A DNA stretch of 64,000 bases from Aurantibacillus circumpalustris (lineage in GTDB: Bacteria > Bacteroidota > Bacteroidia > B-17B0 > Aurantibacillaceae): contig NZ_CP121197.1 of NCBI RefSeq assembly GCF_029625215.1, forward strand, positions 496,001 to 560,000. Direction: 5' to 3'. Shown piece after piece: positions 3,182-54,242 of the stretch (position 1 is the stretch's first letter; every line of letters begins with the position of its first letter). Under the pieces are notes generated by a model. The model saw only the letters and a program-made list of their open reading frames with translations. It was not told the DNA's origin and ran no database searches. The translations under genes were made by a program, and so were the position numbers.

Positions 3182-4180
3182 CTAGAAAACTTGATGTAAG
3201 TCTTCGGTTATTTCTCTCTGTAGTACCTTTTTGCATTTAAATTTCTTTTCAAAGTAGTCAGCAAGATACTCCTGCTCTGTTTGTCCAGGTGTTGGTATCA
3301 AAATAATATTTTTCTTATTCAACAAGTATAAATCCATCAAAGTGCTATAGCCACTTCGGCATATAACGGTTTCTGAATTGACGATTAAGCTCTGTAATTT
3401 TTCTCCGAAACAAAAATTAATAAGTCTGATGTTCGTGCTTTTATTCGTTATTTTCGAATTACTTCCACGTACAAAAACAATTTTTTTATTTGAGTCTTTG
3501 AATTTTTCGAGTAGACAATTTTCTAAAATTGTTCTTTGTGGTTCAACTCCCGAAAGCAAAATTAAATAGTCGTATTTTTCAGAATTACTATTTGAAGTTT
3601 GAAAATTCGTAAGGGCACTTTGTGGACCAATGTATTTTACAGGAGTTTTAATTCGGCTTGAATCGCTTAACTCACCTGATAACCGAAGTTTTGGATCTTC
3701 AAAATCTGGTACCCACACTTCGTTAAATTTGTGAATGTAGTTTCTGTTTATGTTGTTAGCAATCGACGAGAAAAAAGGTGTTTTTACATTTAATTGGTGG
3801 GTAATAAAAATGGAATGCACGAATGGATGTGATAAACCAAAACGGTTGTCACTTATTATAAGATCAATTTTATAACGGTCAACAATTTTTTCAAGTTGTT
3901 TTTTCTCTTCACGAATTGTTCGCTTAATTTTTGGCCATTGAAGAAGTAATTTTATCCAAAGAGGAAGACGTTTTGAATACGCTATTTTATAAGAAGGCAC
4001 TTCTACTTTTTGAAGTTTTGGAAAATACCGATCGAAAAAAAAAGAAGTTAGTGGTGTTGTTCCAATAATAACAGTGTTGTTTTTAGATAGATCTTCAATA
4101 AGCCGTACGCATCTACTGGCGTGACCTAAGCCCCAATCGATCGGAGAAATAAATATGGTTTTACTTACAAACAAAAACAC
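3182..4180 (-). CDS. Glycosyltransferase, MurG/GT28-like
   Basis: The 332-residue protein begins with a strand and the glycine-rich turn ISPIDWGLGHASRC, as in GT-B glycosyltransferases of the MurG/GT1/GT28 group. A nucleotide-sugar-binding C-terminal half follows, with VICRSGYSTLMDLY and a conserved PTPGQTEQEYLA segment. Such proteins transfer a sugar from an activated donor at the inner face of the membrane; the acceptor here cannot be told. No ATG is available at the N-terminus: the frame is closed by TAA directly upstream, so the start is GTG at 4180 or TTG at 4174. It is the last gene of the leftward gyrB group, 76 bases after the PAP2 gene. Confidence 0.7.
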   Translation of the reverse strand: MFLFVSKTIFISPIDWGLGHASRCVRLIEDLSKNNTVIIGTTPLTSFFFDRYFPKLQKVEVPSYKIAYSKRLPLWIKLLLQWPKIKRTIREEKKQLEKIVDRYKIDLIISDNRFGLSHPFVHSIFITHQLNVKTPFFSSIANNINRNYIHKFNEVWVPDFEDPKLRLSGELSDSSRIKTPVKYIGPQSALTNFQTSNSNSEKYDYLILLSGVEPQRTILENCLLEKFKDSNKKIVFVRGSNSKITNKSTNIRLINFCFGEKLQSLIVNSETVICRSGYSTLMDLYLLNKKNIILIPTPGQTEQEYLADYFEKKFKCKKVLQREITEDLHQVF

Positions 4181-14501: not shown

Positions 14502-15206
14502 TTAGTTTGGCCTTATTTCGACATCTCGCTCTTCCATAACAGGGGTAGGACGAATTTCCTGAAGCTTTTGTGTTTCAACGGCCTCGGCGCGACGTTTTGC
14601 TCTTCTTTTGGCCTTTGCCTCTTCGTCTGCGGCTGCATTTGCAACACTATCTATTGTTGTTTCAGAACTATTTACTGCGGACGCAGGATTTGTTATTGCA
14701 GGCACTAAATTTGCAACTGTAGAGTTGGAATTAGATTCTTGTTTAGAAAGTTCTTTAGGAGTTTCAACCACGACAATTGCTTTTTCTTCCTTTATAAGAT
14801 CCTCGTTTTGTGAAACCGCCTGAACTGACTCAATTTCCGGCTTAGCTTTTTTTACTAAAACTGGGAGTGCTTTTTTTTCAGCTTGCTTAGGCTCTTCAGA
14901 GTTCATAGTAACAGCGTCAGTTTCTGGACTCTCCGACTTTTCCTTAACTGAAGTCTTTATACTCACAAAATTAACTAGAAGGAAAGAAAAAATAATTATT
15001 ATGATACCAAATACAGATGGAAGAACAATGTTTCTGTTCATGGTAAAATTAAGGTTGGCAAACCTGTTCTCACGATGATCGCTGACTATTGAATCGGTGA
15101 AGGTTTCAAATTTTTCCCAGGCTTCTTCGCTTACTGCAACAGTGGCCTCTTTTAGCTGCGTACGCAGGTGCCTTTCATCTATTTCGTAGGTAAAATGGTT
15201 ACTCAT
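14502..15206 (-). CDS. Single-span membrane protein encoded with an ECF sigma factor (possible anti-sigma-like)
   Basis: A protein of 234 residues with three parts: a soluble N-terminal region of about 55 residues containing AVSEEAWEKFETF; one membrane segment around residues 60-82 (IVLPSVFGIIIIIFSFLLVNFV); and a low-complexity Lys/Glu/Ser/Ala-rich tail ending in a basic EEAKAKRRAKRRAEA stretch. Its ATG overlaps the TGA of the ECF sigma gene by four bases (15203-15206), so the two are translationally coupled. Position and topology (short cytoplasmic domain, one span, periplasmic tail) fit an anti-sigma factor. However, I recognise no zinc-ASD or FecR motif, so the role is inferred from context. 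Confidence 0.6.
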   Translation of the reverse strand: MSNHFTYEIDERHLRTQLKEATVAVSEEAWEKFETFTDSIVSDHRENRFANLNFTMNRNIVLPSVFGIIIIIFSFLLVNFVSIKTSVKEKSESPETDAVTMNSEEPKQAEKKALPVLVKKAKPEIESVQAVSQNEDLIKEEKAIVVVETPKELSKQESNSNSTVANLVPAITNPASAVNSSETTIDSVANAAADEEAKAKRRAKRRAEAVETQKLQEIRPTPVMEERDVEIRPN

Positions 15207-15778
15207 GCCTTTATCTGTTTTAAACTTTTTTCAATATTCTTCTGAAAATTAAATCTTGCTTTTTCTAAATTACTCTTTACGGTTTCTTCGCTAGATTCCA
15301 AAATAGCTGCCGCTTCAGATAAACTATGTCCTTCAATCACATGAAGGTTAAAAATAAGGCGTTGTGAGGGCACCATTTGCTGCAGGCTTCTTACCAGTGT
15401 TTCAGTATCTAAATGATTAAAATCAATCACCTCATTGTTTTCAAATAAATTGTAGTTTTTAGAAGTTGCATTATCAGTGGCATAAACCGTGCTTGAAACA
15501 TAGTATTCGCTGCGAATACTTTTAACGTAAGCAACGCATTCCAGAATAAACTCTTTCTCAAAAAAAGTATCTAAAGTCGGGACTTTAGAATTACGCATAT
15601 TTTGTAGCTTTTCAAAACAGGAATTAAATCCAAGGTTCAACACTTCTTCTGCCTGCTGCTGGTTTTTACAATACCTGTTAGCTATGGCAGCTAATTTTCC
15701 GTAATAAAGATGAAATACCTCTTTTTTAGCGGTTATATCATTCTTTTGAATGGCTGATATCAAGTCAGGAGAAGACAT
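15203..15778 (-). CDS. RNA polymerase ECF-type sigma factor (sigma-70 family)
   Basis: The 191-residue protein has a sigma region 2 (LYYGKLAAIANRYCKNQQQAEEVLNLGFNSCFEKL) and a C-terminal region 4 helix-turn-helix (LHVIEGHSLSEAAAILESSEETVKSNLEKARFNFQKN). There is no region 1 or 3, as in ECF sigma factors. It would direct RNA polymerase to a small regulon, probably in response to an envelope signal sensed through the overlapping membrane protein. The promoter region contains GAAAC-N16-CGTTAA (15828-15802 on the minus strand), an ECF-like site about 25 bases before the ATG, which suggests autoregulation. Confidence 0.88.
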   Translation of the reverse strand: MSSPDLISAIQKNDITAKKEVFHLYYGKLAAIANRYCKNQQQAEEVLNLGFNSCFEKLQNMRNSKVPTLDTFFEKEFILECVAYVKSIRSEYYVSSTVYATDNATSKNYNLFENNEVIDFNHLDTETLVRSLQQMVPSQRLIFNLHVIEGHSLSEAAAILESSEETVKSNLEKARFNFQKNIEKSLKQIKA

Positions 15779-16175
15779 GAGTTTTAGTTGAGTGTTTCAG
15801 TTTAACGTAAAAAAATGCTAAAAGTTTCGTTTTAGATTCTAAGAACCTAAATGTAGGAGAAAAAATGGAAGAAAAAAATGCTAAAAATCAGGCATTCGCA
15901 GTGCTCACAAACACATTTTTACAATGGCAAAACATTCCCCATAAAAATACTTTCCATTCATACAACCTGTTTTTCTAATTTTTTTTTTAAATTTATTAGA
16001 TTGCTGTAAATCAAGCTAATCATAGGTTATCACGTATTGTCAACATTTTGATAATGTTTAAAACTTAGCCCCGCTGTTAATTCATTTGTCTATCTATTGG
16101 CCTTATTTTTATTTTTATTTGTAACAGGAGATTAAGAAAAGATTAACAAACGGAAATAAATAAAGCATTTAAACT
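15779..16175. other. Divergent control region between the ECF sigma gene and nrdB
   Basis: On the minus strand it holds GAAAC (15828-15824) and CGTTAA (15807-15802), spaced 16 bases apart like an ECF promoter, just before the sigma gene. On the plus strand, TTTG (16085-16088)-N21-TATTTTTA (16110-16117) is a plausible nrdB promoter with a leader of about 50 bases. A 37-codon ORF at 15865-15978 exists but is not convincing. No clear palindromic NrdR box was found. Confidence 0.4.
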
Positions 16176-17147
16176 ATGACAGAACCAATACTCGTCGAAA
16201 ATAAGGACAGATTCGTACTCTTCCCGATCAAATATAAAGACATCTGGGAATTTTATAAAAAAGCCGAGGCGAGTTTTTGGACCGCTGAGGAAATTGACCT
16301 TGCTTCGGATAGTACTGATTGGAATAATAAGCTGAATGATAACGAGAAACACTTTATAAAGCATGTTTTAGCGTTTTTTGCTGCCAGTGATGGTATTGTG
16401 AACGAAAACCTTGCCATTAACTTCCTTAATGAGGTTCAATATCCTGAAGCCCGTTGTTTTTATGGCTTTCAGATTATGATGGAGAATATCCACTCAGAAA
16501 CTTACTCCTTATTAATAGACACTTATATTAAAGATCCTGTTGAAAAAGACCATTTGCTTCACGCTGTTGACACGGTTCCTTGTGTTGGGGAGAAGGCAGA
16601 CTGGGCGATTCGTTGGATTAATAATGGCTCTTTTGCTGAAAGACTTATTGCCTTTGCGGCTGTAGAAGGTATTTTCTTCTCTGGATCTTTCTGCTCGATT
16701 TTTTGGCTTAAAAAACGTGGTTTGATGCCAGGTTTAACTTTTAGCAACGAATTAATAAGCCGTGACGAAGGCCTGCATTGCGATTTTGCGTGTTTATTAT
16801 ATACTTCACACGTGAAACATCAATTACCAAAGGAACAGGTAGCTAAAATTATTGCCGATGCGGTTAGCATTGAGAAAAAATTTGTGGTAGACGCTATACC
16901 GGTTAAATTAATAGGAATGAATTCAGACTTAATGTGTCAATACATTGAGTTTTGCGCTGACAGATTACTTTTGTCATTGGGCTGCGATAAGCTTTACAAT
17001 GCTGTTAATCCATTTGATTTTATGGAAATGATCTCGTTGCAAGGCAAAACCAACTTTTTTGAGAAACGCGTAGCGGAATATCAGAAAGCGGGTGTAATGA
17101 ATAATAAAGAAGAGAATAACATATTTAACCTCGACGAAGACTTCTAG
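16176..17147 (+). CDS. nrdB: Class Ia ribonucleotide reductase, small subunit (beta)
   Basis: NrdB holds the diiron-tyrosyl radical that starts ribonucleotide reduction. At 323 residues it resembles the eukaryotic R2 core. The block [18 protein letters not shown] supplies a metal-binding Glu and His and the radical tyrosine (Tyr110). [10 protein letters not shown] supplies the first acidic ligand, and [16 protein letters not shown] the later Glu/His ligands. The C-terminus NIFNLDEDF is the usual acidic tail that docks on the large subunit. It precedes nrdA in the same direction, separated by 228 bases that contain the nested-helix element at 17162-17274. Confidence 0.96.
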
Positions 17148-17161
17148 ATTTTTAACAGTAG

Positions 17162-17274
17162 TCGGTTAAATAACCCCCTGTATTATCGTACCTTTATGTA
17201 GGCAAGACGCGGTCTAGCAAGGGAATTTTAGCCCCTAAAAGGTAGGAAAAAATACAGGAATATTAATTAACCGA
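17162..17274 (+). ncRNA. Candidate structured RNA element between nrdB and nrdA
   Basis: Three nested, perfectly complementary arms can be read. The outer arm pairs TCGGTTAA (17162-17169) with TTAACCGA (17267-17274). The middle arm pairs CCTGTATT (17177-17184) with AATACAGG (17251-17258). The inner arm pairs TACCTTT (17189-17195) with AAAGGTA (17238-17244) and is extended by TAGG (17199-17202) with CCTA (17234-17237). Inside lies a small hairpin, AGAC-GCG-GTCT (17205-17215). A competing hairpin TTTTAG-CCC-CTAAAA (17226-17240) would break the inner arm, so two exclusive folds are possible. Together this is 27 base pairs over 113 bases, in the nrdA leader. I do not recognise it as a known riboswitch class. 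It may be a cis-regulator of nrdA, a processing site or a stabiliser. Confidence 0.6.
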
Positions 17275-17375
17275 TGAAAGTTGGAAACATTAAAAAACTT
17301 AAGACAGGAAAAGAATAATTTGAAAGTACCTTGTAGTAACTAAAATAACTCAAAAACTAAAAAAACCAAAGGCGT

Positions 17376-19793
17376 ATGTTTGTATTAAAAAGAGATGGCA
17401 CCAGAGAGTCGGTAAAATTCGATAAAATTACCGCTCGTATTCAAAAACTTAGCTATGGCCTAGAGCCAATGCACGTTGATTCAATTCTTGTTGCAAAGAA
17501 GGTGATTGACGGTGTTTATGATGGTGTAACCACCAGTGAGCTAGATAATCTAGCTGCTGAAACAGCTGCGGGACTAACTTCCCGCCATCCCGATTACGCG
17601 CAATTAGCGTCGCGTATCGCAGTAAGTAATTTACATAAGAACACGATTAAGTCTTTTTCGAAGACGATCGAGTCCTTATATCATTATATTGATCCCAAAA
17701 ATGGGTTAAACGCTTCTCTGATTGCAGAGGACGTTTATAAAATAGTAATGGAAAATGCACACACGTTGGATTCTTCTATTATTTATGACAGAGATTTTGG
17801 TTACGATTATTTTGGGTTTAAAACCTTAGAACGTTCTTATTTGCTTAAGATGAACAACCGTGTTGCAGAACGCCCTCAACACATGATCATGCGTGTAGCA
17901 GTTGGAATTCATAAAAACGATATTGAAGCGGCATTAAGAACTTACAATTTAATGAGCGAGCGTTGGTTTACACATGCTACGCCAACCTTATTCAACGCGG
18001 GTACTCCCAAGCCGCAAATGAGCTCTTGCTTTTTATTACAAGTAAAAGACGATAGCATTGATGGTATTTACGATACATTAAAACAATGCGCGAAGATTTC
18101 TCAAAGCGCTGGTGGTATTGGTATCAATATTCACAATGTACGTGCAACTGGCTCTTATATTAAAGGAACTAATGGAACCAGCAACGGAATTATTCCAATG
18201 CTAAAAGTGTACAATGAAACTGCACGTTATGTCGATCAAGGTGGTGGAAAACGTAAAGGTTCTATCGCAGTGTATTTAGAGCCATGGCATGCAGATATTT
18301 ATGAGTTTTTAGATATTCGTAAAAATCACGGTAAGGAAGAAATGCGTGCACGTGATTTATTTACTGCACTTTGGATTCCTGATTTATTTATGAAGCGTGT
18401 AGAAGCGGAAGGTGATTGGAGCTTAATGTGTCCAAACGAATGCCCAGGCTTAAGCGATTGCCACAGCGAAGCATTTGAAACACTGTATACTAAATACGAA
18501 AGCGAAGGGAAATTCCGTAAACAAATTAAAGCGCGTGAATTATGGGCAGCCATTATTGAAGCACAAATTGAAACCGGTAATCCGTACATGTTGTTTAAAG
18601 ATGCGGCTAACTCCAAATCAAATCAACAAAATTTAGGTACCATTAAATCTTCTAACTTATGTACCGAAATTATTGAGTACACCAGCAAAGATGAGGTTGC
18701 CGTATGTAACTTAGCTTCTCTTGCATTACCACGTTTTGTGGATGAGAAAGAAGGAACATTTGATCACGATAAATTATTTGAGATCACTTATCAAGCTACG
18801 TTAAACTTAAATAAAATCATCGACCGTAATTATTACCCGGTTCCTGAAGCGCGTAATTCGAACATGCGTCACCGTCCTATTGGCCTTGGTGTGCAAGGTT
18901 TGGCCGATGCGTTTATTTTAATGCGTTATCCTTTTGAAAGTGATGAAGCGAAAAAATTAAATTCAGAGATTTTTGAGACGATGTATTTTGCTGCTTTAAC
19001 GGCTAGTAAAGATCTTGCAAAAATTGATGGTGCTTACGAAACATACCCTGGTTCACCGGTTTCAAAAGGAATTTTCCAACACGACATGTGGAATGTAAAA
19101 GCTAGTCCACGTTGGGAATGGGATGTATTGCGTGAAGAAATCATGAAATACGGAATTCGTAACAGTTTATTGTTAGCACCAATGCCAACAGCAAGTACAT
19201 CGCAAATTTTAGGTAACAACGAATGTTTTGAGCCATATACAAGCAACATTTATACACGTCGTGTATTGAGTGGTGAGTTTGTAGTAGTAAACAAACATTT
19301 ATTACGTGACTTAGTGAAATTAGGTATCTGGAACGAAGGTTTAAAAAACAAAATCATTGCGGCGAACGGTTCGGTGCAAGGAATTCCTGAAATTCCTGCC
19401 AACATTAAAGAACTTTACAAAACAGTTTGGGAAATTAAACAACGTACCATTATTGATATGGCCGCCGACCGTGGAGCATTTATCGATCAATCGCAATCGT
19501 TGAATTTATTTATTCAAGATGCAAACTTCGCTAAAATGAGTTCGGCACATTTCTATAGCTGGAAAAAAGGTTTAAAAACTGGTATGTATTATTTACGTAC
19601 TAAAGCAGCGGCTGATGCCATTAAGTTTACAGTAGATCAAGCAGCTTTAAGCCAACCTACATTTGTGTTAGGAAACGAAGATCAGCTATTGGTAGATCGT
19701 GGACAATCGCATGTGTTAAGCTTTGAAGAAAAACAAGCGCAGTTAAGCTGTTCTCTGGATAATCCGGAGGATTGTGAGGCGTGTGGGTCGTAA
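17376..19793 (+). CDS. nrdA: Class Ia ribonucleotide reductase, large subunit (alpha)
   Basis: The catalytic subunit reduces ribonucleoside diphosphates to deoxyribonucleotides. The 805-residue protein opens with an ATP-cone allosteric domain ([24 protein letters not shown], about residues 1-90), followed by the ten-stranded barrel. Visible active-site parts are [16 protein letters not shown] (first catalytic Cys), SNLCTEI near residue 428 (Asn-Cys-Glu triad) and [15 protein letters not shown]. The C-terminal tail [11 protein letters not shown] carries the CxxC pair that is re-reduced by thioredoxin. The whole sequence is of the eukaryotic-like NrdA type and matches the eukaryotic-like NrdB upstream. 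It ends just before a strong terminator at 19811. Confidence 0.97.
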
Positions 19794-21307: not shown

Positions 21308-21414
21308 AAATGGTTAAAACCATTTCGGGTCGCGGGTATTCCATTCATTGCGTTGGGATTAATCCCAACGCAATGAATGGATATGGTGCACAACCAAAAC
21401 CGTTTTAACGGTTT
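21308..21414. repeat. REP-like composite palindrome unit 2
   Basis: The order is the same as in unit 1: AAATGGTTAAAACCATTT (21308-21325), a perfect 40-base palindrome (21341-21380) with core GGGATTAATCCC, and AAACCGTTTTAACGGTTT (21397-21414). The central palindrome shares only its core with unit 1, and its outer arms differ while remaining self-complementary. A small hairpin CGCAA-GGA-TTGCG (21519-21531) sits just before the transposase. Confidence 0.8.
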
Positions 21415-21554: not shown

Positions 21555-22001
21555 ATGCCACAATCCTATTACAAAATTTGGTTGCATGTTGTATTCTCTA
21601 CGAAATGTAGATTGCCTTTAATTGAACCACGTGTTGAAAGACAAATTCACGATCATATGCGCGAACAATTAATAGAACTGGGTTGTCCGGTTCGCATTAT
21701 AAATGGCATGTCAGATCATGTGCATTTGTTATTCCTACACAACCCACGCATGACAATTGCAGACGTTGTGAAACAGGTGAAAGGAAATACTTCGCATTGG
21801 ATTAACAAAAATGATTTAACGCAATTTAAATTTTCGTGGCAAGACGGCTATGGAGCCTTTTCGGTAAGCGAATCACAATTGGAGCGGGTTTTTCAATATA
21901 TCCGAAATCAAAAACAGCATCATGCTAAAAAATTATTTTCGCAAGAGTACGATGAATTTATTGCAGCGCATGGCTTGGTTAAAGAAAAGGAAACGGCGTG
22001 A
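21555..22001 (+). CDS. IS200-like (Y1) transposase, REP-associated tyrosine transposase type
   Basis: This is a single-domain Y1 HUH-endonuclease of 148 residues. It has the N-terminal YYKIWLHVVFSTKCR strand, the metal-binding HUH motif as DHVHLLF (His-Val-His), and the catalytic tyrosine region QDGYGAFSVSESQLERVFQYIRNQKQHH. Such enzymes cut and join single-stranded DNA at hairpins. There is no tnpB partner and no IS ends are evident. Two composite palindrome units lie directly upstream. This fits a RAYT, a domesticated relative of IS200 transposases that spreads or processes REP sequences. Confidence 0.85.
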   Translation: MPQSYYKIWLHVVFSTKCRLPLIEPRVERQIHDHMREQLIELGCPVRIINGMSDHVHLLFLHNPRMTIADVVKQVKGNTSHWINKNDLTQFKFSWQDGYGAFSVSESQLERVFQYIRNQKQHHAKKLFSQEYDEFIAAHGLVKEKETA

Positions 22002-22970: not shown

Positions 22971-24386
22971 TTATTTCCCAGTTTGCTTTAACTTAATATC
23001 ACCTTTTATTTGACACGGAGGAATCAAAGAATCTAACACAAGCGGTTTGCCTTGAGTAAGTAAATGCGATTTTAACCCACTGTAGTTTGGTTCATAAAGT
23101 GTACAACGGAATACTTGATTACGTGAGTTCTCTTTTGTTTCCTTTATAATACCATTACCTGACACAGGATTAATATAAGTCCAAACTATTTTGTTTGTTT
23201 TATCAATTTCAAAAAACTTGCCATTTGCACCTTCGCATATTAAAGTGTTGCCATTTGATAAACGTTGCGCGCTAGAAACATTACGAGAGTAAAAATTAAC
23301 TGGTATGCTATCGCTATATTTCCACTCCGCATCATCAGGTAAAAAAGCTTTTCCTTTTGTAAGATCATAAGTACCGTTCTTATTAATTGGTGTAACGATA
23401 ACCTCAACACTTGAATATTGACCACCGGGTCTATCTAAGCCATTATTGAACACCATAATCTTTCCTGCATCTTTCAATCCATTGGCTATCCAAAAAGCAC
23501 TGTGTTGATTAAATAATTTTTTGTCAACTACCGAACCTTGATTGTACGATTCAGGATTACCCCAGCGATATAATAGATCGCCACCCTTATTCCTTAATCC
23601 GCCGCTATGCGATGCTGCTTGCTTTATTGTAGTGCTATGATCAATAATAAATAGTTCGCCGAAATTTCGATTACTCACCAGAATTTGGTTGATGGCTGGG
23701 TTAAATACAACTGAATTAAAATGCAACCAATCTGGAACCGAAGCTGTTGAGTAATTAATGTTTATTAATTGTGGGTTTTCTGAAATAACACCATAATGTA
23801 AACCGTTAGTATTTACATCCTGAATTAAATGATCCCAGACACTCCATTCCCAAACTACAATGGCTGAATTTGTACCCACAGGCTTTAGTTCAATAATTTT
23901 CTCGTTCCATAATCCTTCACCAGCATACATTGAGTCTCTGCCCGCTTTAATAGCTTCTTCTCGCGACTTCTTTTCCCAAACAAGCATTAAAACATTTCCG
24001 TTTGGCATGGGATAAACATCATGATGTCGTCTTTCCCTTTTATTTGACAAGCTGTATTGCCAAAGAACCTTACTATTCCAGTCAAGTTTTTCTATTTTGC
24101 CACCGTCACCTGCAAACGTAGGTACAGAATCGGTGCAAGTTCTTAATAAGCTCCCGTTAGGTAAAAGATAAACGGATTGGCCTGGAATATATTTACTTTT
24201 CCATGAATGGATTTCATTTCCACACTTATCAATTAAATAAGTAGTTTTAGAATATAGCGGAGCAAATAAAACATATCCGTTGGTTGACTGCGTTGTTTGT
24301 TTTATTAACCCTGTTTGTTTTTGTGCATTAGCACTCAGGTAAATTGTAATAAGAAAAAGTAAAATTATTCTTTTTGTAAAACACAT
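22971..24386 (-). CDS. Arylsulfotransferase (ASST)-like propeller protein, copy 1
   Basis: This 471-residue exported protein (signal peptide ends YLSANAQ) has the ASST-like propeller repeats: GYVLFAPLYSKTTYLIDKCGNEIHSW, HHDVYPMPNGNVLML, DWLHFNSVVFNPAINQILVSNRNFGELFIIDHS and AQRLSNGNTLICEGANGKFFEID. Characterised ASSTs transfer sulfate between phenols in the periplasm through a catalytic histidine; HHDVYP is a candidate. Many Bacteroidota homologues are uncharacterised. There is no T9SS sorting domain, so it probably stays periplasmic or is a soluble export. It is paralogous to the gene at 27826. The ATG at 24386 is chosen over an in-frame TTG two codons upstream. Confidence 0.75.
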   Translation of the reverse strand: MCFTKRIILLFLITIYLSANAQKQTGLIKQTTQSTNGYVLFAPLYSKTTYLIDKCGNEIHSWKSKYIPGQSVYLLPNGSLLRTCTDSVPTFAGDGGKIEKLDWNSKVLWQYSLSNKRERRHHDVYPMPNGNVLMLVWEKKSREEAIKAGRDSMYAGEGLWNEKIIELKPVGTNSAIVVWEWSVWDHLIQDVNTNGLHYGVISENPQLININYSTASVPDWLHFNSVVFNPAINQILVSNRNFGELFIIDHSTTIKQAASHSGGLRNKGGDLLYRWGNPESYNQGSVVDKKLFNQHSAFWIANGLKDAGKIMVFNNGLDRPGGQYSSVEVIVTPINKNGTYDLTKGKAFLPDDAEWKYSDSIPVNFYSRNVSSAQRLSNGNTLICEGANGKFFEIDKTNKIVWTYINPVSGNGIIKETKENSRNQVFRCTLYEPNYSGLKSHLLTQGKPLVLDSLIPPCQIKGDIKLKQTGK

Positions 24387-24450
24387 ATTCAAAAAGTATA
24401 AAGATATAAATACATTAAACCTATTGTTGAAATAACAATTTTATTTAAAT

Positions 24451-27825: not shown

Positions 27826-29181
27826 TTATTTACCGGAATTTAATTCAATTTCTTTACCAGAGATGAGCTTATGTTTTTTAAAACCTGAATAATTACCTTG
27901 GTAAAAACTACATCGAAATACTTGATTCTGACTAATGTTTGCAGTACTACTAACCACACCGCTTGCTGTTACAGGGCTCACATACTTCCACACAATTGTT
28001 TGAGCGCTATCAATTTCAAAAAACACGCCATTCGCCCCTTCGCAAATAAGTGTGTTACCGTTATATAAACGTTGTGCATTTGATACATTTCTTGAATAGA
28101 AGATAGTTTGAGGATCTGCAGTATATATCCAATTTAGTGTATCCGGTAAATAACCAAAATCTTTTTCGAATTTATAATTTGTATTGTTATCGAAAATAGG
28201 TTCAATTATTTCCACGCTTGAAAAATCACCAGCTGGTCTTTCCAAACCGTTATTAAAGATCATTATTTTATTTTCATCTTTCAGCCCTTTTGCAATCCAG
28301 TGAGCACTATGTTGTTTGTAGAGTTTCTGATCCTCAACGTCCCCATAATTGTAGGCCTGTGAATTTCCCCAACGGTATAACAAATCTCCACCTTTACGAT
28401 ACTGACCACCCGAATGAGATCTGCTTTCGTTTTTTTTACCATGTTCAATAATAAACACTTCATTAAAATTTCGATTACTAACAAGTATTTGTTTTAATTC
28501 GTTGTTGTAGGCGATAGAATTAAAATGCAACCAGTCTTCACTTTTGGATGCCAGATAATTAATATTGAATAGCTGTGGGTTTTTTGAAACGTTTCCGTAA
28601 TTTTCCTTTGTGGAATCAAAATCCTGAACAAGATGATCCCATACGTACCACTCCCATATTATTTCAGCTGAGTTTTTCCCTTTTGGTTTCAGCTCGATAA
28701 TTTTTTCACTCCACACACTTTCGCCAAGTAATTTGGGATCACGGCCCTTGGTGATTGATTGTTCAGGACTTTTTTTATCGCAAACCAAAACCAAAATATT
28801 TCCATTTGGTAAAGGACAAATATCGTGATGTTGACGTTGTGTTGAATCTGAAATTCTGTAAGACCATATTATCTTGCTATTCCAATCTAATTTTTCAATG
28901 CCGCCGCCGCCACCTGAAAAACTTCCAGTTGAATCGTTCGTTGTTCTTAGTAGTTGGCCATTTGGCAGTAAATAAACTGACTGATTAGGGCGTTTAGAGC
29001 TTTGCCAAGTATGCACTTGTTTTCCAAACTTATCAATTAGGTACGTGGTTTTAGAAAAAAGTGGTGCAAATAAAACATAACCCTCTGCGGATCCTTCCTC
29101 TCTTAGGATTAAGCCTGTTTTGGGTTGCGAGAAACTCTTTTGAATATTTAAAATAAAAAAAAGTAGTAGTGCTTTTTTCAT
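27826..29181 (-). CDS. Arylsulfotransferase (ASST)-like propeller protein, copy 2
   Basis: A 451-residue exported protein (signal peptide ends KSFSQ) paralogous along its whole length to the gene at 22971. It has the same blocks: GYVLFAPLFSKTTYLIDKFGKQVHTW, HHDICPLPNGNILVLV, DWLHFNSIAYNNELKQILVSNRNFNEVFIIEH, and AQRLYNGNTLICEGANGVFFEID. The divergence suggests an old duplication. The T9SS gene between the copies is unrelated to them, so either the pair was split by insertion or the three act together. Catalytic activity is unproven for this subfamily. Confidence 0.75.
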   Translation of the reverse strand: MKKALLLFFILNIQKSFSQPKTGLILREEGSAEGYVLFAPLFSKTTYLIDKFGKQVHTWQSSKRPNQSVYLLPNGQLLRTTNDSTGSFSGGGGGIEKLDWNSKIIWSYRISDSTQRQHHDICPLPNGNILVLVCDKKSPEQSITKGRDPKLLGESVWSEKIIELKPKGKNSAEIIWEWYVWDHLVQDFDSTKENYGNVSKNPQLFNINYLASKSEDWLHFNSIAYNNELKQILVSNRNFNEVFIIEHGKKNESRSHSGGQYRKGGDLLYRWGNSQAYNYGDVEDQKLYKQHSAHWIAKGLKDENKIMIFNNGLERPAGDFSSVEIIEPIFDNNTNYKFEKDFGYLPDTLNWIYTADPQTIFYSRNVSNAQRLYNGNTLICEGANGVFFEIDSAQTIVWKYVSPVTASGVVSSTANISQNQVFRCSFYQGNYSGFKKHKLISGKEIELNSGK

Positions 29182-53002: not shown

Positions 53003-53545
53003 TTAATTTTTCTCTAATTTATAGTCTATGCGTTCTCTTGTCTGAGGATTTTCTTTTTTGTCTAACAAATCATCAAAATAACTAAATACGATTTCGATGT
53101 TCTTTGTGTTATTCTCCGTCTTTTGTCGAATCTCTTCAATAGCTAGGCGTAATTCCGTGTTATCCATAAGAGATTGGCGGATTTTTGTAAAAATGCGCAT
53201 GATTTGAATATTCACTGAAATCGCTTTATCACTCTTTAAAACCGAAGATAACATAGCTACTCCCTGTTCAGTGAAGCAAAAGGGCTGATGTCGTAACCCC
53301 ATTTTATCAGAATTGGAGGTCACAAATTGTGACCTCCAATTTTGCAGTTCACTTTCTGACATTTCAAACATAAAATCTTCTGGAAAACGTTTTACATTTC
53401 TCTTTCCAGATTGCTTTAAAACTTTCGTTTCCACACCGTATAACTCCGCTAGATCGCGATCCAACATAACTTTTTGATTGCGAATAAAGTATATTTTATT
53501 CATTATTATGTCCTCAGGAAAACTAATTTCATTTTGGGTCTTCAT
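53003..53545 (-). CDS. ORF6N domain protein, intact copy
   Basis: The 180-residue protein carries the ORF6N (KilA-N related) DNA-binding domain: IYFIRNQKVMLDRDLAELYGVETKVLKQSGKRNVKRFPEDFMFEMSE, then QPFCFTEQGVAMLSSVL and a coiled helix ending NTKNIEIVFSYFDDLLDK. Such proteins are common in phages and as chromosomal singletons in Bacteroidota and are thought to be regulators. A damaged tandem copy lies directly upstream. No other phage gene is near. Confidence 0.85.
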   Translation of the reverse strand: MKTQNEISFPEDIIMNKIYFIRNQKVMLDRDLAELYGVETKVLKQSGKRNVKRFPEDFMFEMSESELQNWRSQFVTSNSDKMGLRHQPFCFTEQGVAMLSSVLKSDKAISVNIQIMRIFTKIRQSLMDNTELRLAIEEIRQKTENNTKNIEIVFSYFDDLLDKKENPQTRERIDYKLEKN

Positions 53546-53574
53546 ACCCTAAAATTAATGGAGATGTAAAAAAA

Positions 53575-53597
53575 TGCTTGCCACGAATTGTAGTATT
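53575..53597. repeat. Duplicated upstream segment, copy A
   Basis: The segment TGCTTGCCACGAATTGTAGT (start 53575) recurs at 54199-54221 with one change (AATATT for AGTATT). The two copies lie 624 bases apart at equivalent positions before the two ORF6N genes, so the gene and about 75 bases of upstream DNA were duplicated together. Confidence 0.7.
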
Positions 53598-53623
53598 CAA
53601 AAAAGATTTTGATAGTTGAAAAA

Positions 53624-54169
53624 CTACAAAGCTCGTTTATCGGGAGTCGTATAACCGATAGCTTTTCGTGGTTTTACTTTCTCATTTTCATTCAGCAAAT
53701 CATCAAAATAGCTAAAAACAATTTCGATGTTCTTGGTATTATTCTCTGTCTTTTGCCAAATCTCTTCAATGGCTAATCTTAGCTCAGTATTATCAATTGA
53801 GGCTTGTCTAATTTTAGCAAAAATTCTCATGATTTCAATGTTTACAGAAATAGCTTGTTTACTATTAAGAACGCTGGACAACATAAGAATTCCACACTCA
53901 TTAAATACCATTGGCAAATACCTCAACCCACCCCAACTTGAGGTGCCAAATTGGCGCCTCAAATTTTCGTGCTCAATTTCTGTTAGTACAAACATAAAAT
54001 CTTCTGGAAATCGATCAATATTTCTATTTACTTGTCGTTTAAGATGTTTTGTTTCTACACCATATAATTCAGCCAAATCACTATCCAACATAACCTTTTG
54101 ATTCCGAATAAACTATATTTTATTCATGACTAAGTCCTCGGGAAGTCTAATTTCATTTTGGGTTTTCAT
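53624..54169 (-). pseudogene. ORF6N domain gene with in-frame stop (tandem paralogue)
   Basis: Read from the ATG at 54169, the first 18 codons (MKTQNEIRLPEDLVMNKI) align with the intact copy (MKTQNEISFPEDIIMNKI). The next codon is TAG (54115-54113) where the intact copy has TAT (Tyr). The frame then continues FIRNQKVMLDSDLAELYGVETKHLK to the stop at 53624, still matching the paralogue to its end (FSYFDDLLNENEK). A restart at the ATG 54091 would give 155 residues lacking the first strand of the domain. It is thus a nonsense-interrupted copy, unless the base is a sequencing error or the stop is suppressed. Confidence 0.8.
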
Positions 54170-54198
54170 ACAGTAAAATTAATGTGGGCTTAACAAGA

Positions 54199-54221
54199 TG
54201 CTTGCCACGAATTGTAATATT
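54199..54221. repeat. Duplicated upstream segment, copy B
   Basis: Partner of the segment at 53575-53597, found upstream of the interrupted ORF6N gene; 22 of 23 bases agree. Confidence 0.7.
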
Positions 54222-54242
54222 AAAAAACAAGTAAACTACTTT

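Follow-up and report, generated by a model that had tools for sequence, protein, structure and literature searches.

What occupies the 228 nt that separate nrdB from nrdA, two plus-strand genes of a class I RNR, and could it take part in the control of this operon? RNR supplies all dNTPs, and the control of RNR operons is the task of NrdR and the NrdR-box. The operon considered here is of the same kind, but NrdR (TIGR00244) was not found in the source genome, a single contig of 4.6 Mb. The search covered this genome itself, with a control that was positive in 9 of 14 genomes, and its outcome suggests that the usual RNR regulator is not available to the organism.

The original prediction for this part of the window (the whole 64-kb stretch of DNA analyzed here) was a nested RNA element acting in cis on the RNR operon through two mutually exclusive folds. 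A conserved structured element with covarying pairs is indeed present, but the second fold named in that prediction is not conserved. The element is a conserved, covarying and single-copy RNA found at the RNR operon in two families, the family of the window (f1) and a second one (f20), and it is probably a real, uncharacterized local control element. Its parts are listed in Table 1, together with the promoter-like sequences around it.

Table 1. Features of the nrd region. Positions are those of the window, except in the last three rows, where they refer to the locus named.
Feature	Position	Strand	Remarks
nrdB upstream element, TGTTTAAAACTT-N8-TGTTAATTCATTT	16055-16087	+	Conserved in f1 nrdB upstream regions
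nrdB -7-like element, TATTTGTA	16116-16123	+	Conserved TTTGyA; putative function
nrdB	16176-17147	+	Class I RNR small subunit, 323 aa
TTTAACA block	17151-17157	+	Just 3' of the nrdB stop; precedes TAnCTT(T/G)
P1 outer 5' arm, TCGGTTAA	17162-17169	+	8 bp with TTAACCGA
5' block, GGTTAAATAACCC	17164-17176	+	Alternative partner of B; 10/13 pairs with 17221-17233; competes with P1 outer arm
P1 middle 5' arm, CCTGTATT	17177-17184	+	8 bp with AATACAGG
P1 inner 5' arm, TACCTTT	17189-17195	+	7 bp; also TAnCTT block of genus g1
Hairpin A, GCAAGAC-GCG-GTCTAGC	17202-17218	+	One A-A mismatch; covariation, homologues
Segment/hairpin B, GGGAATTTTAGCCCC	17221-17235	+	Most conserved sequence of the element
P1 inner 3' arm, AAAGGTA	17238-17244	+	Pairs with TACCTTT
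P1 middle 3' arm, AATACAGG	17251-17258	+	Pairs with CCTGTATT
Block C, TTAATTAACCGATGAAAGTTGGAAA	17263-17287	+	Putative activator site of the nrdA promoter; conserved across the family
P1 outer 3' arm, TTAACCGA	17267-17274	+	Overlaps block C
Block D, TACCTTGT	17327-17334	+	TAnnTTGY -7 box of candidate nrdA promoter
nrdA	17376-19793	+	Class I RNR large subunit, 805 aa
Weak R1 match in L313 (f12)	1476-1549
Weak R1 match in L318 (f12)	1491-1550
Weak R1 match in L048 (f12)	3916-3989

Folding of the Gap and its Closing Helix

Three nested pairs of complementary arms (8, 8 and 7 bp) had been read in the gap; they are present, and they constitute both the MFE and the centroid fold of the 17162-17274 region. 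Their nesting is also, as claimed, more than chance would give, with an MFE of -36.7 kcal/mol (z -4.45) that none of 200 dinucleotide shuffles equaled in stability. The same was found for 17150-17290 (z -5.26; 0/200 dinucleotide shuffles as stable), and the whole gap (17148-17375) gave a z of -2.59, three of 200 shuffles being as stable. The element does not, as first described, stand directly in front of nrdA: 101 nt lie between 17274 and the nrdA ATG at 17376.

These arms are a fast-changing closing helix, P1, which surrounds hairpin A and segment B and completes a three-way junction. P1 was evaluated by pairing the flanks of A+B with their own partner or with the partner from another genome. 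In g1, the genus of the window, own partners were the better ones (z -3.5 to -3.9; n=35), and the same held for family f20 (z -2.2 to -2.9; n=13). P1 was unsupported in the 30 f1 gaps outside g1 with flanks of 20-45 nt (z +0.2 to +0.9), and own-partner pairing in these gaps reached z -2.1 with flanks of 60 and 80 nt.

Eight g1 relatives were folded individually, of which L107 and L109 came first, having been chosen for their well-pairing flanks, and six more afterwards, with a mixed outcome. The recurrence of the helices in close relatives, proposed as a check, is seen in the four that adopt the same nested three-way junction (L109, z -4.09; L107, -1.65; L113, -1.49; L110, -1.01) and fails in the four others. 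In L108, L114 and L116 (z -0.6 to -1.3), the fold is a different one: B (GGG...UUUAGCC) is paired, around A, with the 5' strand GGYUAAA...CCC that follows nrdB; L112 (z +0.58) shows neither arrangement. Over 65 f1 gaps, the mean folding z was -2.03, and 28 gaps were at z <= -2.

The Conserved Core: Hairpin A and Segment B

The conserved core of the element sits inside the arms and consists of hairpin A followed by segment B. Its homologues come from f1, the only family returned by an order-wide search (completeness of at least 85%; 70 genomes). Of 87 family genomes, 77 have an identified nrdA, and gaps were taken from 70 of these, G042-G045, G074, G076 and G082 being left out; L123 was set aside for want of an nrdB upstream, which gave a set of 69 distinct gaps. 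From nrdB to nrdA, the alignment displays A, B, block C, block D, an A-rich stretch and the nrdA start. The stem of hairpin A varies freely in sequence, B follows directly 3' of A with the consensus GGGAAUnnUAGCCYC (a B-like regex matches 58 of the 69 gaps), and the consensus of block C is TAATTAACCGnnnATTGTTgAAa. The core alignment contains 65 gaps, after removal of L137, L151, L154 and L173, which have no recognizable core and are the 4 of 69 gaps in which model R1 (see below) found no match.

Covarying base pairs in homologues, another check attached to the original prediction, were obtained for hairpin A. In the 65-sequence core alignment, double changes occur at all six pairs of helix A and 83.6% of its cells are paired; the core structure as a whole contains 86 double-change cells, against 26.4 in shuffles, none of 500 being as high. 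A tree-based null, in which substitutions were replayed on an nrdB-built tree, ranked 1596 column pairs, and the top three all belong to helix A (E <1/60, 0.10 and 0.15); two other helix A pairs, 18-32 and 20-30, come further down (E 4.9 and 7.1), and a third, 16-34, is outside the 14 pairs listed. RNAalifold predicted four pairs on alignment A1, all in helix A (-0.58 kcal/mol), and none on the longer alignment A3. Treated as a hairpin, B is paired in 92.7-93.8% of cells, and the core alignment shows one-sided changes there and no double change. Pairing of the 5' arm of hairpin A with block D was also considered and rejected, as by eye it is lost where arm A changed.

R1 was built from f1 sequences only. 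Over the 87 family genomes, it returned 80 rows at E <= 0.1, 65 at nrdA and 15 elsewhere, as placed by hand comparison with nrdA positions; the best row away from nrdA was in G044 (E 3.6e-4). At this threshold, 70 of the 87 genomes have a match, 65 at the nrdA gap and five only elsewhere. Sequences from 61 of the 65 nrdA-gap genomes are part of the model, and four were held out (G039, G074, G076 and G082). The f1 nrdB leaders, which are short, showed no A+B element among 41 aligned upstream sequences, some of them partial.

A Second Family and Related Leaders

In f20, R1 produced 52 rows over 36 genomes (E <= 1). The top six are located in the nrdB 5' UTR, as are 12 of the 30 f20 loci fetched. 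Given that R1 was built from f1 alone, these matches represent a more independent result, and the presence of A+B in the f20 nrdB 5' UTR indicates that the element belongs to the nrd operon. A typical f20 element reads GAAAGC-loop-GCUUUC-A-GGGAUUUUUAGCCCC and is located downstream of a promoter-like ACATTTGTACACC. All five f20 genomes of the survey described below carry the element by eye, including G178 and G207, for which R1 gave no match at nrdB. An alignment of both families (A2) combined 29 of the 65 core sequences with 13 f20 rows, hand-picked. The position of the element within the operon thus differs between the two families, being the nrdB 5' UTR in f20 and the nrdB-nrdA gap in f1.

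Among 296 genomes of the class, R1 found matches in 19, nine of them from f1; two of the other ten have the match at nrdB, and both are f20. Model R2 found matches at E <= 0.3 in 41 of 392 genomes of the phylum, the window's own included. None of the 29 R2 loci fetched from this search is near nrd, and no wider spread is therefore claimed from it.

A survey of 100 nrdB upstream regions outside f1 (five of them f20) revealed a terminator-like hairpin followed by a U-run in 13 leaders, against 0.85 expected. Most belong to f16 (5/6) and f36 (5/5); in L291 (f36), the script picked another hairpin, and GCAGGC...GCCTGCTTTTTT is present in all five f36. Tails of f16 leaders such as GGGGUUUUUCUGCCUCUAAAA resemble GGGAAUUUUAGCCUCUAAA of f1, and a GCCUCUAAAA-like sequence is shared with f1. 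A strong hairpin with a seven-T run was also noted in the nrdB leader of L360 (f38), a candidate RNR leader terminator. The 95 survey loci outside f20 were searched with both R1 and R2; one survey locus, L287, has only 53 nt of upstream sequence. R2 scored weakly, with nine matches at E <= 5, of which four are B-like in nrdB leaders: one in f42 (21.8 bits, E 0.057), one in f10 (16.6 bits, E 1.4) and two in f16 (17.2 bits, E 0.93; 14.5 bits, E 4.7). A B-like regex matched 15 of 100 nrdB leaders, against 1.4 expected, a weak comparison since the regex was written after seeing the sequences. Homology of the element beyond f20 is suggested by these likenesses. In the nrdB-nrdA gap of family f12, R1 gave weak matches (17.6-19.1 bits, E 0.28-0.77, two genomes; L048 and L313 appear to be one contig), and f12 may be a second family in which the element is intergenic.

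Proposed Transcript Attenuation and its Closest Rival

We tentatively favor a cis-acting RNA element of the class I RNR operon that acts on nrdB-derived transcripts, most likely as an attenuator. Such a device would be made of hairpin A and segment B, enclosed in the window by the fast-changing closing helix, and B would either form its own hairpin or pair with the sequence immediately 3' of the nrdB stop. It would act in cis on transcripts entering from nrdB, where a termination/read-through gate would set the share of nrdB transcript that reaches nrdA, and the separate TAnnTTGY promoter would provide nrdA with its own supply. As the element lies upstream of this promoter in f1, transcripts starting there would exclude it.

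A gate of this type is preferred because the f16 and f36 leaders of the same operon carry plain terminators. Like the f1 element, these leader attenuators combine a hairpin, a U-rich stretch and GCC(UC), at an RNR operon. Unlike them, the f1 element is located between genes rather than in a 5' UTR, has GGG between the hairpin and the U-rich stretch, and offers no terminator match: the script found a terminator-like hairpin with a U-run in 0 of the 69 f1 gaps. Attenuation is thus carried over to f1 from families with weak homology, and protein binding or message stability stays close as a rival.

According to this rival, A+B would be bound by an RNA-binding protein or by RNR itself, or would protect or cut the nrdBA message, and the balance of the subunits would be adjusted without termination. 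A short conserved sequence (B) beside a variable stem (A) is what a protein site could look like, and both the position between the genes of the two subunits and the lack of a U-run terminator in the 69 f1 gaps suit a protein-binding or stability element. A pure role in subunit ratio is at odds with f20, in which the element is in the 5' UTR and not between genes. We regard this explanation as serious, if somewhat unlikely.

Second Folds and the Riboswitch Hypothesis

The competitor first proposed for the inner arm of P1 was a hairpin at 17226-17240. The sequence TTTTAG-CCC-CTAAAA exists there, but the hairpin is absent from the MFE and centroid folds and lacks conservation: 59.1% of its cells are paired, and shuffles give 57.0% (20/500 as high). 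The exclusive options that are real are another pair: in the window, GGTTAA (17164-17169) is complementary either to TTAACC (17267-17272), in the P1 outer arm, or to B.

GGYTAA occurs upstream of A in 29 of 65 f1 gaps, and part of the family lacks the 5' block. All tests of its complementarity to B are post hoc, as it was noticed late in the analysis. In the 29 gaps, the 5'-block 13-mer can pair with B at 9.7 of 13 positions on average, the mean for other 13-mers from these stretches being 4.8, and it ranks first as B partner in 22 of them. Over all 65 gaps, 24 show pairing with B that at most five of 100 shuffles equal or exceed. Double changes affect 11 of the 13 pairs (3/500 shuffles as high), and 68.0% of cells are paired, against 66.4% in shuffles and at most 52.9% when the block is slid. 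In fixed register, pairing of the block with its own B is not superior to pairing with a B taken from another genome (z 0.19), and duplex energy slightly favors the own partner (z -1.96, 103/4000). Covariation between the 5' block and B is weak, RNAalifold returns 0 pairs on alignment A3, which covers this pairing, and f20 has no such complementarity.

These folds bear on the possibility of a riboswitch, a modified form of the original idea, in which A, B and the surrounding strands would be the aptamer for a nucleotide or another metabolite and the 5' block would exchange B for the TTAACC of block C as its partner. 2'-Deoxyguanosine riboswitches, which are relatives of purine riboswitches, are linked to nucleotide-reduction genes, and their three-way junction shape is shared by the element. 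They differ from it in that its A-B strand is about 1-2 nt, its conserved part is B and no Rfam match was obtained. Searches against Rfam 15 returned no family at the gathering cut-off in the 64-kb window, where all matches were unrelated and below threshold, and one unrelated sub-threshold match in 19 nrd loci; that no known riboswitch could be recognized was already part of the original prediction. The complementarity of the 5' block to B, the three-way junction in the window, L107, L109, L110 and L113, and the 5'-block/B fold in L108, L114 and L116 are compatible with a switch. Conversely, the alternative fold hardly covaries, the enclosing helix is undetectable in the 30 f1 gaps outside g1, and neither the R1 family searches nor the R2 phylum search found a second pathway gene with the element. 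Ligand sensing and a fold switch are possible without being firmly supported, and a riboswitch seems improbable overall.

Promoter-like Sequences at nrdA and nrdB

The gap was also said to contain nothing else, which is incorrect, as a conserved candidate nrdA promoter of the SM5 type (17263-17334) fills its second half. In f1, this promoter-like C/D pair appears as a separate conserved feature between the RNA element and nrdA. The GTT of block C precedes TAnnTTGY by 46-47 nt in 64 of 69 gaps, compared with 0.1 on average and at most one in shuffled gaps, and any other spacing from 30 to 65 nt is found in 0 or 1 gaps. This count was 62 of 69 before the GTT pattern was widened to admit the window's own GTTGGA, with controls for both versions. 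All 64 C/D-positive gaps have the pyrimidine of block D, and B and C are separated by a variable distance (22-127 nt; 62 gaps).

According to PMC9723704, SM5 promoters of Flavobacterium psychrophilum carry TAnnTTGY, a box that lacks one base of the common TAnnTTTG and is most probably recognized by an alternative sigma factor. The same paper lists LPS, amino-acid scavenging and gliding among the functions of SM5 genes, whereas here the box precedes nrdA. In the window, an ECF sigma factor gene (15203-15778, minus strand) is divergent to nrdB, beside a putative anti-sigma gene (14502-15206, minus strand), and could be related to the TAnnTTGY nrdA promoter. As a general reader of block D this sigma factor was rejected: its gene adjoins nrdB in 13 of 20 f1 loci examined and was not found in L036-L042, against TAnnTTGY in 64 of 69 gaps.

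Further upstream in the gap, TTTAACA stands before TAnCTT(T/G), at a distance of 38-39 nt, in 22 of the 36 g1 gaps that were scored (L154 left out). The latter motif overlaps the P1 inner arm, and the pair may be a promoter or part of P1. At nrdB, GTTAATT and TTTGyA are 41-42 nt apart in 28 of 36 sequences scored and 32 nt apart in seven; the two spacings differ by roughly one helical turn, a pattern expected of an activator bound to DNA. A relaxed pattern of the nrdB upstream element has one occurrence in the genome, and we take this element to resemble DnaA-box-like sequences.

Could control then be mainly at the level of DNA, with the gap serving as a promoter region and the RNA fold being incidental? 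The constrained spacings of GTT and TAnnTTGY, of TTTAACA and TAnCTT, and of the nrdB variants all suit this explanation. We nevertheless consider it improbable, as the pairing of helix A is kept despite sequence change, which a DNA operator would not need, and as A+B recurs in f20 on the 3' side of the promoter-like box, within the 5' UTR.

Genomic Context

A small mobile palindromic repeat can be dismissed: an IS200-like transposase lies 4 kb away, but the element occurs once per genome, at a single gene, its second-best DNA match in the source genome spans 24 nt (E 0.0135), and it has an nrd location in two families. No tRNA or tmRNA was found in the 64-kb window, and a scan for small ORFs (20 aa minimum) yielded only two that overlap the gap, of 28 and 20 aa, both starting with TTG and neither located over A or B.

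Other repeats were noticed along the window. A perfect 42-bp palindrome (21340-21381), possibly a transposon end or target hairpin, is found upstream of the gene for an IS200/IS605-like transposase (21555-22001), at a distance of 173 nt. Blocks 71-80% identical are shared by 22971-24392 and about 27966-29082, corresponding to a minus-strand ORF and its probable paralogue, and direct repeats 624-630 bp apart and 75-78% identical are found in 53049-54227.

Implications for the Control of RNR

We found no description of the element in the open-access literature, PMC9723704, PMC8040213 and PMC7266159 included; the 64 structured 5' regions of PMC9723704 could include an RNR leader.

Transcript attenuation, our tentative choice, could be part of a larger picture. 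The element would then stand for an undescribed RNA class of several Bacteroidia families and, in organisms without NrdR, would provide the principal feedback control of class I RNR. It would work as a leader attenuator or, in f1, between the genes, where the B/TTAACC switch strand would gate read-through and an alternative-sigma-type nrdA promoter would tune alpha:beta, possibly in response to nucleotides. We consider this whole scheme unlikely.

To our knowledge, the control of RNR in Bacteroidota devoid of NrdR has not been established. The covarying RNA found at this operon in two families, added to leader terminators in two others, offers a concrete and testable candidate for such control. 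It also provides an example of an RNA element that appears at different places of one operon from one family to another, with its core kept.
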